A stretch of DNA of 64,000 bases from Formosa sp. Hel1_31_208 (GTDB lineage: Bacteria; Bacteroidota; Bacteroidia; Flavobacteriales; Flavobacteriaceae), in contig NZ_LT629733.1 in assembly GCF_900104785.1 (NCBI RefSeq), positions 466,501 to 530,500 of the forward strand, given 5' to 3'. Below, in pieces: positions 30,385 through 33,698 of the stretch. Under the pieces are notes generated by a model. It made no database searches. It was not told the DNA's origin and was given only the letters and a program-made list of their open reading frames with translations. How positions within the stretch are numbered: the stretch's first letter is position 1; each line of letters begins with the position of its first letter. Position numbers and translations under genes: made by a program.

Positions 30385-32283
30385 ATGAGCGATGCATTAA
30401 AACATGAATGCGGAATTGCACTCATAAGACTTAAAAAACCATTAGAGTTTTACAAAAACAAATACGGAAGCGCGTTTTATGGTGTCAATAAAATGTACTT
30501 AATGATGGAAAAACAGCACAATCGAGGACAAGATGGTGCAGGCTTTGCCAGTATTAAAATAGACACCAACCCCGGTGAACGCTATATTAGTCGCGTACGT
30601 TCAATTGCACAACAGCCCATTCAAGATATTTTTGCTCAAATTAATGAGCGTATTAATTATGAACTGGATGCTCATCCTGAATATCAAAATAATGTTGAGC
30701 TTCAAAAAAAACATATCCCTTACATAGGCGAATTGCTTTTAGGTCATGTACGTTATGGTACATTTGGGAAAAATAGTGTTGAGAGTGTACACCCATTTTT
30801 AAGACAAAACAATTGGATGCATCGAAATCTTATTGTCGCTGGTAATTTCAATATGACTAATGTGACCCAGTTATTTGATGGCTTGGTTGAATTAGGTCAA
30901 CATCCTAAAGAAAAAGCGGATACCATTACCATAATGGAAAAGATTGGTCATTTTCTAGATGATGCCGTAAGTAAAATATATAAAAGACTCAAAAAAGAAG
31001 GTTATAGTAAAAGTGATTGTTCTCCTTTAATCGCTGAAAGATTAAACGTCGCAAAGATTTTAAAGAAAGCTGCAAAAAATTGGGATGGTGGCTATGCTAT
31101 GGCAGGGTTATTAGGACATGGTGATTCGTTTGTGCTACGCGATCCAGCTGGTATTCGACCTGTCTATTTTTATGAAGATGATGAAGTTGTTGTTGTGGCA
31201 TCAGAGCGTCCTGTGATTCAAACCGTATTCAATGTAGACTTTGATGACGTCAAAGAATTAGATCCAGGGCACGCAATTATTACTAAAAAATCTGGTGAAG
31301 TCTTTATTGAGGAAATTTTAGAACCCTTAGAACGAAAGGCTTGTTCTTTTGAGCGTATCTATTTTTCACGTGGTAGTGATGCTGAAATCTACCAAGAACG
31401 AAAAACCCTAGGTAAATTATTAATGCCGAAAGTATTAGAAGCGATAGATTATGATACTAAAAACACGGTATTCTCTTTCATTCCAAATACTGCGGAAACG
31501 TCTTTCTTCGGAATGATAGAAACGGTTGAAGATCATCTCAATCAACGCAAAACCAAGGCTATTTTAGATGGTAATGGCCAGTTGTCAGCTGAACAAGTTA
31601 CGGATATATTGTCTGAACGACCTCGCATCGAGAAAATCGCTATTAAAGATGTAAAACTTAGAACTTTTATTACAGAAGATAGTAGTCGAGATGATTTAGT
31701 TGCCCACGTTTATGATGTTACATATGGTGTGATTAAACCGGAAGATAACCTCGTCATCATTGACGATAGTATTGTTAGAGGCACGACGCTCAAAAAGAGC
31801 ATCATAAAAATGATGGATCGTCTAAACCCAAAACAAATTGTTGTTGTCTCCTCTGCACCGCAAATACGTTATCCAGATTGTTACGGAATTGATATGGCTA
31901 ACCTTGAGAGTCTCATCGCCTTTAGAGCAATGTTAGATTTACTGAAAGAACAAGATAAATATCATATGGTCGAAGAAGTCTACCATAAATGTAAAGCCCA
32001 ACTAGAATTTAAGGATGCTGAAGTTAAAAATTATGTCAAAGATTTATATAGTGAATTTACTGCCAATGAGATATCTGATAAAATAGCAGAATTAATTTCT
32101 GATGAGACCGTAAGTGCAAAGGTTAAAACCATTTTTCAACCTATCGAAAATTTACACAAAGCCTGTCCAAAAAACTTAGGGGATTGGTATTTTACCGGAA
32201 ACTATCCTACAGATGGTGGTAACCGCGTAGTAAATAAAGCATTCGTTAATTTTTATGAAGGGAACAAGGAAAGAGCCTATTAG
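30385..32283 (+). CDS. PurF-like amidophosphoribosyltransferase, long form
   Basis: A class II glutamine amidotransferase domain is followed by a phosphoribosyltransferase domain, as in PurF, the first enzyme of purine synthesis. The presumed nucleophile is Cys9 (HECGIALI), after an eight-residue leader that would need removal, as in B. subtilis PurF. HNRGQDGAGF, GHVRYGTFG and RDPAGIRPVYF belong to the glutaminase; the PRPP loop VIIDDSIVRGTTLKKS is near residue 457. At 632 aa it is over 100 residues longer than typical PurF, with an insert around residues 73-115 and a C-terminal extension. It may be the main PurF or a paralogue. Confidence 0.85.
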   Translation: MSDALKHECGIALIRLKKPLEFYKNKYGSAFYGVNKMYLMMEKQHNRGQDGAGFASIKIDTNPGERYISRVRSIAQQPIQDIFAQINERINYELDAHPEYQNNVELQKKHIPYIGELLLGHVRYGTFGKNSVESVHPFLRQNNWMHRNLIVAGNFNMTNVTQLFDGLVELGQHPKEKADTITIMEKIGHFLDDAVSKIYKRLKKEGYSKSDCSPLIAERLNVAKILKKAAKNWDGGYAMAGLLGHGDSFVLRDPAGIRPVYFYEDDEVVVVASERPVIQTVFNVDFDDVKELDPGHAIITKKSGEVFIEEILEPLERKACSFERIYFSRGSDAEIYQERKTLGKLLMPKVLEAIDYDTKNTVFSFIPNTAETSFFGMIETVEDHLNQRKTKAILDGNGQLSAEQVTDILSERPRIEKIAIKDVKLRTFITEDSSRDDLVAHVYDVTYGVIKPEDNLVIIDDSIVRGTTLKKSIIKMMDRLNPKQIVVVSSAPQIRYPDCYGIDMANLESLIAFRAMLDLLKEQDKYHMVEEVYHKCKAQLEFKDAEVKNYVKDLYSEFTANEISDKIAELISDETVSAKVKTIFQPIENLHKACPKNLGDWYFTGNYPTDGGNRVVNKAFVNFYEGNKERAY

Positions 32284-32302: not shown

Positions 32303-32330
32303 GCACTTTATCCTAAAAAAAGTGCTTTTT
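32303..32330 (+). terminator. terminator after the PurF-like gene
   Basis: GCACTTT pairs with AAAGTGC around a 9-base loop and is followed by five T. Confidence 0.7.
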
Positions 32331-32398
32331 GTCTGATAAAAATGCATTTCGTCTAATATTTAACAACTCTTACTTAATAATCACATACATTGGTATCA

Positions 32399-32470
32399 CC
32401 ATAACATAAGTAGGTTAAGTTCATGGTAGATTTGGGGCAAAAAAAGGTGAACTTCTGTTCACCTTTTTTT
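32399..32470 (+). ncRNA. putative small RNA, copy 1
   Basis: A 5' hairpin (CCATAAC pairing with GTT-C-ATGG, 13-base loop with ATAAGTAGGTTAA) is followed by a linker TAGATTTGGGGC plus an A run. A perfect terminator ends it: GGTGAAC, loop TTCT, GTTCACC, seven T. The start is inferred by analogy with copy 2. The -7 position reads TACATTGG, one base off TAnnTTTG. A frame opening at ATG 32423 differs between copies by a frameshift, so coding is unlikely. No downstream gene on this strand could be controlled in cis. Confidence 0.65.
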
Positions 32471-32685
32471 ATTTTACCACCTGAAAAATATTAACAATAA
32501 GAAATTCAATTCTTCTCAAATTTCTTCAGACAATTCTAAAGTACTAATTACGAATATAATGAACTATTCATATGAAGTAGACATTTATTCGATGCTACGC
32601 AACTCCCAGAAATACTGATTTTTCCGTTTAAGCCAATTTATTCGTCGTTGGTCTAAAAAATTAAAATATTAGAGAAAAGCTCTGT

Positions 32686-32693
32686 TATATTTG
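32686..32693 (+). promoter_or_regulatory. -7 promoter element of small RNA copy 2
   Basis: TATATTTG, an exact TAnnTTTG, ends three bases before the repeat unit begins. This places the transcript start at about 32699. Confidence 0.6.
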
Positions 32694-32698
32694 TTTCA

Positions 32699-32768
32699 CC
32701 ATAACATAAGTAGGTTAAGTTTATGGTAGATTTGGGGCAAAAAAGGTGAACTCTCGTTCACCTTTTTT
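32699..32768 (+). ncRNA. putative small RNA, copy 2
   Basis: The architecture is that of copy 1: a 5' hairpin (CCATAAC with GTT-T-ATGG), a conserved unpaired linker and a 7-bp terminator stem GGTGAAC/GTTCACC with loop TCTC and six T. An exact promoter element stands just upstream, so the unit is a complete, free-standing transcription unit of about 70 nt. The differences from copy 1 fall only in a bulge, an A run and the terminator loop, which fits selection on RNA structure. Confidence 0.75.
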
Positions 32769-32825
32769 CATTTTCAGTCCATACCTCCACGAAACACGTT
32801 CACCAGCTTCGGTTGGTTTCCATCC

Positions 32826-32856
32826 AAAAAAAAGCAAACCCAAATGAGCTTGCTTT
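32826..32856 (-). terminator. terminator of sodA
   Basis: On the minus strand AAAGCAAGC pairs with GTTTGCTTT (one G-U) around a short loop and is followed by eight T in total. Confidence 0.7.
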
Positions 32857-32878
32857 AGTAATATCTATGTTTAAAGAT

Positions 32879-33487
32879 TTATTTCGCTTCAGCGTAACGT
32901 CTCTCTACTTCATTCCAGTTAATCACTTTAAAGAAGGCATCAATATAATCTGGTCTTCTATTTTGATAGTTTAAATAATATGCGTGTTCCCATACATCTA
33001 ATCCTAAAATTGGAGTTCCTTCACATGTCACGCCAGGCATTAATGGATTATCTTGATTTGGTGTAGAGCAAACTTCAACTTTTCCGCCTTTATGAACACA
33101 TAACCATGCCCATCCAGATCCAAATTGCGTTGCAGCAGCTTTACTAAACGCTTCGACGAATGCATCCTTAGATCCAAATGCTGCTTCGATCGCATCTTTT
33201 AAATCTCCTGACAAATAACCTCTATCTTCTGGATTCATAACATCCCAGAATAATGAGTGATTATAAAATCCACCACCATTATTTCTAACTGCCATGTTAT
33301 TCATGTCAAGATTTGTTAAGATATCTTCGATAGACTTATTTTCAAGAGTTGAACCCTCAACAGCAGCATTCAATTTCGTGGTATAACCATTGTGGTGCTT
33401 TGAGTGGTGTATTTCCATAGTACGCGCATCAATATGTGGTTCTAATGCATCATACGAATATTTTAATTTAGGTAATTCGAAAGCCAT
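32879..33487 (-). CDS. sodA: superoxide dismutase, Fe/Mn family (Mn-like)
   Basis: The 202-residue enzyme converts superoxide to oxygen and peroxide. The metal ligands are H27 (in MEIHHSKHH), the His of [11 protein letters not shown], and Asp and His of [10 protein letters not shown]. Gly-Gly-Gly before FYNH together with the NQDNPLM glutamine is the pattern of Mn rather than Fe enzymes. It has no signal peptide. The start is the ATG at 33487; a longer frame to 33547 would add 20 hydrophobic residues with no family homology. Confidence 0.95.
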
Positions 33488-33698
33488 AATATATTGGTTT
33501 TTAAATATTAATAAATAAAACACAAATTTAAGGATAAAACAGCGCATTATAAAATTATCAAGTCCAGTGCTCTAAATACTTATGAAAAATTTAACGTTAT
33601 ACTAGTCTTAAGCGATGAGCATTATAACACATGAGAAAAACTGAGTTAAAAATTACTTGATGACATATCTTATTTTTATCTTGTATCAAATTTAACCC

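Follow-up and report, generated by a model that had tools for sequence, protein, structure and literature searches.

A multicopy small RNA family of the Flavobacteriaceae with predicted pairing to the start regions of surface-protein mRNAs

Two closely similar units in the window (the whole 64,000-nucleotide stretch of the Formosa sp. Hel1_31_208 genome that was analysed) are probably copies of a multicopy trans-acting small RNA gene, the loop and linker of which bind the start regions of surface-protein mRNAs and repress their translation. Computational analysis revealed an RNA family whose synteny and structure are conserved and whose copies have a promoter element, and for one conserved target family the complementarity exceeds chance; complementarity to start regions is lower in genomes that lack the RNA. 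In the mechanism proposed here, each copy would be transcribed from its own promoter with a TAnnTTTG −7 box, and at most copies two direct repeats 20 bp apart would receive an activator. The RNA product of about 70–75 nt would use its loop AUAAGUAGGUUAA and single-stranded linker UAGAUUUGGGGC jointly to bind a bipartite mRNA element located just upstream of the start codon and often including it. The targets would be the mRNAs of a CAP-domain lipoprotein, of large T9SS-secreted proteins and of other secreted or surface proteins. The duplex would most likely block the ribosome at the start codon, so that translation is repressed.

Both units are on the plus strand in exact +300 register, unit 1 starting at 32396 and ending near 32470, and unit 2 starting at 32696 and ending near 32768. 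Each is predicted to fold into a 5′ hairpin, a free linker of 12 nt and a terminator hairpin, and 0 of 200 shuffled sequences folded as well as either unit (fold z −4.18 for unit 1 and −4.35 for unit 2). The hairpin loop, seed module 1, occupies 32406–32418 in unit 1 and 32706–32718 in unit 2. The linker, seed module 2, occupies 32427–32438 and 32727–32738 and has predicted pairing with CCAAAUCU/GCCCCAAAU of start regions. Intrinsic terminators follow at 32439–32470 and 32739–32768. The first-pass annotation, made from the sequence of the window, had described two units of common hairpin-linker-terminator architecture exactly 300 bp apart, and sequence and folding bear this out. It had also listed a single base, the length of an A run and the terminator loop as the only differences; the three are real (C/T at 32422/32722, A7 versus A6, and TTCT/TCTC), but the T-run tail differs too (T7 versus T6 then C). 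The sole ORF of at least 50 aa that starts on the same strand just after a unit encodes 53 aa (32813–32974) and lies inside the opposite-facing superoxide dismutase (SOD) region. Neither unit therefore precedes an evident gene, in agreement with the earlier description. A peptide reading was rejected, as the frame through the internal ATG is broken by the A-run difference, which had been noticed before, and by the terminator changes as well.

The upstream neighbour of the pair is a 632-aa PurF-like glutamine amidotransferase gene (30385–32283, plus strand; the PurF label is ours, the Pfam match covering only the GATase part), and the convergent neighbour is an Fe/Mn superoxide dismutase gene (32879–33547, minus strand; Pfam Sod_Fe). 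Among 152 distinct loci, both neighbours were in view at 119, and every one of these 119 has the array between the two genes, on the purF strand and with the SOD gene facing it; at the other 33, one or both neighbours are out of view, some through contig ends. These array loci are not independent, since one genus supplied some of them and an exact-match scan others. The pair in the window is not a chance occurrence, because the same gap holds it across the family. Copies were counted with a pattern allowing at most one mismatch, which misses degenerate copies, so that the counts are lower bounds: one copy in 35 arrays, two in 48, three in 16, four in 13, five in 6 and six in 1 (n=119). At two loci (L070 and L105) neither neighbour gene is within the fetched DNA. 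Copies off the main array were seen in G028, on two contigs, and in G029, 18 kb apart on opposite strands, and extra copies are present far along the contig from the main array in G427 and G437.

The position between the two genes in 119/119 loci with both in view and the terminator-like 3′ hairpin would suit cis elements, that is a duplicated terminator or attenuator between the convergent purF-like and sod genes. Such a role is highly improbable: a single terminator would suffice and arrays reach six copies, repeats stand at a constant position upstream of most copies, the conservation of loop and linker goes well past what a terminator needs, and the copies in L070, L105, G028, G029, G427 and G437 are found with neither gene in the fetched DNA, on another contig or far off.

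Copies within an array are ordered. In multicopy arrays the last copy is of the T-type (GTTTATGG) in 78/84 cases and the non-last copies are of the C-type (GTTCATGG) in 134/148, and the window pair has the same order, with C-type unit 1 first and T-type unit 2 last. The two types look like old, ordered paralogs. At five loci (L032, L033, L057, L199 and L200) the last copy has a linker of GATTTGGGACGAAAA and a distinct upstream sequence, AATACCAGTA.TTTAG, that contains no direct repeats; in Zobellia/Maribacter-like arrays the region upstream of the last copy is different and free of repeats. Because of this subclass, the paralogs may answer to different signals, and the array probably sets dosage and lets its copies respond separately in this manner. 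Several similar tandem copies would also be expected of a MITE-like repeat or mobile element expanded here by chance. We give this hardly any credence, as the unit occurs mostly at one locus family-wide, its stem covaries, and the two paralog classes keep their fixed order with the T-type last. The search of the own genome returned nothing but the two units, one incomplete match at another site and the inverted match of the terminator to itself. The many genome-wide copies with mobile features and no conserved structure that the first-pass annotation had named as the contrary outcome are not what is observed.

Promoter-like elements precede both units. The element reported earlier upstream of the second copy is present as a −7 box, TATATTTG, at 32686–32693, two bases before unit 2; unit 1 has a weak TAnnTTTG match, TACATTGG, at 32386–32393, and relatives carry a TAnnTTTG-like box at the matching place (plus strand throughout). 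Further upstream are direct repeats with cores 20 bp apart, TTTGTC and TTCGTC (32328 and 32348; 32328–32353) at unit 1 and TTAAGC and TTGGTC (32628 and 32648; 32628–32653) at unit 2, the second core being 38 bp before the −7 box in each case. For a promoter matrix, 35 of 333 units without a −7 anchor were left out and identical or cut-off regions were removed, leaving 279 upstream regions. The matrix consists of two half-sites 20 bp apart and an A/T-rich stretch; the information content of the −7 box is no evidence, because that anchor was chosen by pattern, which the half-sites were not. TTNRNC pairs with a 20-bp period occur in 197/279 regions, whereas any other period from 17 to 23 occurs in at most 22/279 and shuffled regions give a mean of 0.8. 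The second half-site begins 37 or 38 bp ahead of the −7 box in 183 cases. Unit 1 of the window scores only 4.2 on the matrix. Each unit thus appears, from its sequence, to have its own promoter and intrinsic terminator. The 20-bp repeats are probably the site of an activator, which we infer to be of the response-regulator type; repeats about two helical turns apart may resemble those of LytTR-type response regulators. The linker itself, TAGATTTG, was considered as a TAnnTTTG promoter and rejected: many relatives carry TAAGATTTG in its place, so that this reading is not conserved, and the covarying terminator follows directly.

Structure conservation was examined in 65 distinct, diverse units. 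Changes on both sides were found at 10/12 pairs of the terminator and at 2/10 pairs of hairpin 1, with 97.6% of cells paired, a count that leans towards the model because the alignment was fitted to it. In a MAFFT alignment 7/12 terminator pairs change on both sides and hairpin 1 hardly varies. Near-invariance beyond the needs of folding is seen in the loop AGUAGGUUAAG, in the 3′ arm and in the linker AGAUUUGGGG, and in all about 30 nt of the RNA hardly change.

The unit was found in 80/100 sampled Flavobacteriaceae genomes, drawn across 99 genera. A BLASTN-type search of flavobacterial genomes, as suggested earlier, detected it in 30/34 family genomes. A covariance model was built from 42 of 65 units found in a search, picked for variety (alignment A1, with 10 bases taken off the 3′ ends of two rows); units 1 and 2 of the window score 102.8 and 103.8 bits on it. 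With this model 66/76 family genomes were positive, two of them weakly, and outside the family 16/319 other genomes of the order gave matches, one strong and 15 weak (9e-6 to 1e-3). The lone strong match (3.9e-15; locus L194 of genome G423) has the same purF/SOD synteny and may be explained by transfer, by misplacement of a contig or by a borderline taxonomic position. In a scan of the phylum 33/395 genomes were positive at E 1e-4 or better, and all 33 belong to the Flavobacteriaceae. A scan with the loop sequence returned at least 118 stretches. The 80 listed are from Flavobacterium, Zobellia, Maribacter, Winogradskyella, Aquimarina and other genera, which we take to be Flavobacteriaceae wherever the title gives a genus; a few of the listed matches are titled just Flavobacteriia, Bacteroidota or Bacteroidetes bacteria.

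In Rfam 15 no family matched either unit at threshold. Membership was rejected, as there were sub-threshold matches only and all four aligned ones reflect terminator similarity. The covariance check proposed for Flavo-1 gave a clear answer to whether the units are the same as that motif or distinct from it. Flavo-1 (RF01705), a reported Bacteroidetes RNA motif (PMC2864571), is absent at the gathering threshold and among the listed matches with E up to 5 around the units, and the two are distinct. In the open-licence PMC literature searched, the RNA and its genomic setting are undescribed. The two most conserved stretches of the RNA match regions around the start codons of genes that encode secreted and surface proteins, so that it probably represents a hitherto undescribed cell-surface switch used throughout the Flavobacteriaceae.

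The closest parallel considered is FopS (RF04319), paralogous sRNAs of Bacteroides and so likewise multicopy small RNAs in the Bacteroidota. FopS is reported to have a conserved seed in a single-stranded stretch ahead of a Rho-independent terminator; its predicted targets are rich in outer-membrane SusC genes, one SusC mRNA is translationally repressed, and its partner RbpB is an RRM protein (PMC11697453). On the FopS covariance model unit 1 scores 22.6 bits and unit 2 14.1 bits, against a threshold of 56. The FopS consensus starts with the seed and has no 5′ hairpin, whereas the present RNA has a conserved 5′ hairpin before the linker; unlike FopS, the copies here are mostly in a tandem array at one locus. 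A search of the own genome for RRM_1 (PF00076) found none, with Bacteroides ihuae positive as control, and therefore a chaperone, if any, would differ from the Bacteroides RbpB. Judged in this way, the present RNA is not FopS by score, structure or partner. Rfp18 of Flavobacterium psychrophilum is reported to be an sRNA conserved within a flavobacterial genus and predicted to target secreted metalloproteases and an adhesin (PMC9723704); a predicted target here is likewise an M43 metalloprotease with a T9SS tail (L388). Rfp18 is reported to pair via a third stem-loop and the present RNA has two; the two may still be the same RNA, and an F. psychrophilum Rfp RNA could belong to the family described here. 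RNA-seq of F. columnare is reported to have yielded candidate sRNAs without Rfam matches (PMC5395568).

Target prediction with loop and linker, another of the checks proposed at the outset, was carried out on a conserved gene. The CAP-domain lipoprotein gene of the own genome (Pfam CAP) was first met through its pairing. Its protein was then the query in 100 family genomes, and 30 orthologs were chosen by protein alone, being the 30 top-scoring ones among matches from 70 genomes; all are from RNA-positive genomes. Their start regions gave a mean duplex energy of −24.2 kcal/mol, versus −12.0 further upstream. With 1000 shuffled RNAs the mean at the same starts was −14.8 (sd 1.6, best −19.9), and 0 of 1000 were as low as the real RNA; 113 starts of a control gene, SOD, gave a mean of −10.7. 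Both loop and linker take part in the predicted duplex at 30/30 CAP start regions. The typical CAP UTR is CCAAATCTAAATTACCTACTTATG, with CCAAATC in 21/30 and CTTATG at the start in 15/30. The conserved seed is thus predicted to be complementary, beyond chance, to the start regions of separate genes. The first-pass proposal of trans-acting sRNAs with loop and linker as seeds agrees with these results and with those for the large secreted proteins below.

Conserved single strands might instead mainly bind a protein, as in a CsrB-like sponge, with the mRNA complementarity secondary. The near-invariance of about 30 nt, which exceeds the needs of a seed, would suit such a sponge, as would multiple copies that raise dosage. 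We consider it quite improbable: the CAP-start pairing outdoes every one of the 1000 shuffles with both modules in use, and the own genome has no protein of the RRM_1 class, the one RNA-binding class searched. Within the preferred reading, of an sRNA pairing with mRNA starts in the cell, the direction of the effect can be weighed. The CAU of the RNA is paired in 19/30 CAP start regions and faces the start codon in the aligned cases, AUG in the typical one, and covering of the start codon normally blocks initiation; from this we infer repression rather than activation. The same pairing might activate these targets by opening or stabilising the mRNA, which is unlikely but deserves some weight. 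Positive sRNA effects do occur in the genus Flavobacterium, since deletion of Rfp18 in F. psychrophilum is reported to have lowered two protease mRNAs (PMC9723704).

A further 20 CAP homologs were hand-picked. Eight from two RNA-less genomes gave −12.2 to −17.6, at background level, these controls being distant (33–48% identity) and from two genomes only, one of them 80% complete. Among the 12 from RNA-positive genomes, 7 were at −20 or lower and 5 at −14.2 to −17.8, like background; three (L435, L437 and L438) pair strongly through another UTR sequence, ATGCCCCAAATTTGATG. The CAP protein was found in 68/80 RNA-positive and 2/20 RNA-negative genomes (Fisher p 4e-10, cross-table counted by hand), its absence from the latter being partly due to the small size of many such genomes. 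The CAP genes are without an sRNA-type promoter, the highest matrix score being 8.0.

A second group of candidate targets came from 1338 gene starts sampled from three genomes. The two strongest duplexes (−31.2 and −30.2) are those of genes that encode two similar proteins, 2009 and 2097 aa long. These carry MAM and LamG domains, and a match to the T9SS sorting tail falls narrowly short of its cut-off. These two genes, which are homologs of each other, also have the top scores of the 1338 on the sRNA promoter matrix (20.1 and 20.2; next 16.1). As at the CAP genes, loop and linker are both predicted to pair at the starts of large secreted proteins; large T9SS-secreted proteins have the pairing site in common and often the promoter architecture of the sRNA as well. 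Over all 1338 genes, promoter score and duplex energy were not correlated (p 0.14; top 20 versus rest p 0.06). A recurrent 5′ UTR, TTAGTCCCAAACTAAAATTTAACCGCTTATG and variants, was found at 12 genes in 12 other genomes, coding for long proteins with exported-looking N-termini. Of the UTR matches, only those followed by an ORF of 70 codons or more were kept (25 rows from 50 loci), 20 loci were hand-chosen for the recurring UTR, and the 12 genes were picked for the UTR and grouped by eye, with Pfam run on one (L376: LamG). For the sRNA promoter, 8/12 score 12 or more, versus 13/1338 sampled genes, and 4/12 are below. This long-protein group counts as one family of evidence, because its genes seem related to each other. 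Other candidates are a 147-aa protein (L383) that has no Pfam match but has look-alikes in two further genomes, the M43 metalloprotease mentioned above, a pectate-lyase-like protein (named from sequence; the Pfam match is the T9SS tail) and a peptidyl-arginine-deiminase-like protein.

On the evidence of one gene family, the sRNA and the T9SS genes are likely to form a feed-forward loop. In its full form, one regulator acting on the 20-bp-spaced repeats would turn on both the sRNA array and the large T9SS-secreted surface proteins, and the sRNA would then clamp those mRNAs in a two-part duplex that includes the AUG; we put this forward tentatively. If it holds, start-codon capture would replace Shine-Dalgarno masking, and no RRM chaperone would be required. 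The clade is said to rely little on Shine-Dalgarno pairing.

Genome-level counts were also obtained. The 9-mer GCCCCAAAT occurs 22 times in the own genome versus 3 for the reversed control; four of the 22 sites are sRNA-type loci, and three are at most 20 nt upstream of a start codon, with an exported-looking protein. Complements to 9-mers of all modules were present in 27 of the 1338 start regions versus 10 upstream and 9 in coding sequence, and 14 of the 27 matches have a signal-peptide-like N-terminus (crude rule, p 0.016). Linker-core 9-mers matched 4 start regions and none in three control regions (0/300 shuffles as good), whole-linker 9-mers 4 versus 2, 1 and 0 (29/300), and loop 9-mers 9 versus 1, 2 and 4 (24/300). 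Bulk duplex energy over the 1338 genes was unexceptional in the difference between start and upstream regions, with 10 to 30 of 120 shuffles as high; bulk pairing is not start-specific, because the RNA beats most shuffles in both regions alike. The pattern CCCAAA..TTAACC..ATG was not visibly commoner than its reversed control in 249 family genomes, and the reversed-pattern control for GCCCCAAAT near ATG in 395 genomes of the order is unfair to coding bias. When internal folding is taken into account, the predicted binding of six own-genome candidates to the window RNA is at least as good as that of 145/150 random starts, some of which are candidates themselves. An ortholog test of an outer-membrane barrel gene with an 11-nt match failed for want of orthologs: the gene was found in 1/23 genomes, its own, and in none of the 22 relatives from the genus.

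The Flavobacteriaceae play a major part in the degradation of algal polysaccharides and count fish pathogens among their members, and their post-transcriptional control is little known. If the proposed reading is true, this would be the first family-wide regulon, with a single sRNA family, sited chiefly at one locus, and a bipartite target code that can be read. Target prediction would become possible across hundreds of genomes, and it could be tested directly how small RNAs halt translation in bacteria that make little use of Shine-Dalgarno pairing. The variation from one to six copies and the two ordered paralog classes would make a natural case for sRNA gene dosage. The Qrr sRNAs of Vibrio are also several near-identical copies, each under its own regulator-controlled promoter; Qrr uses Hfq and sigma-54, in a clade unrelated to the Flavobacteriaceae.

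Some minor observations concern the seed sequences. In L196 and L189, GCCCCAAAT is found directly after the T-run of the terminator as an inverted repeat of the seed, and a read-through transcript could hide the seed in this way. In the own genome (L002; 692.60–692.66 kb, minus strand), two other exact copies of the 14-base linker AGATTTGGGGCAAA are 42 bp apart, in a 3′-UTR-like stretch downstream of an ABC transporter gene (named from sequence), the second copy being in the loop of a stem, ATTTATGA/TCATAAAT. The double linker seed recurs in the genus (L439–L458) at 40–44 bp, with three copies in L456; it may represent another sRNA, or a decoy, with the same seed. At L284, also in the own genome, two identical starts of an 85-aa ORF are present 1566 bp apart (13784 and 15350), a small duplication.
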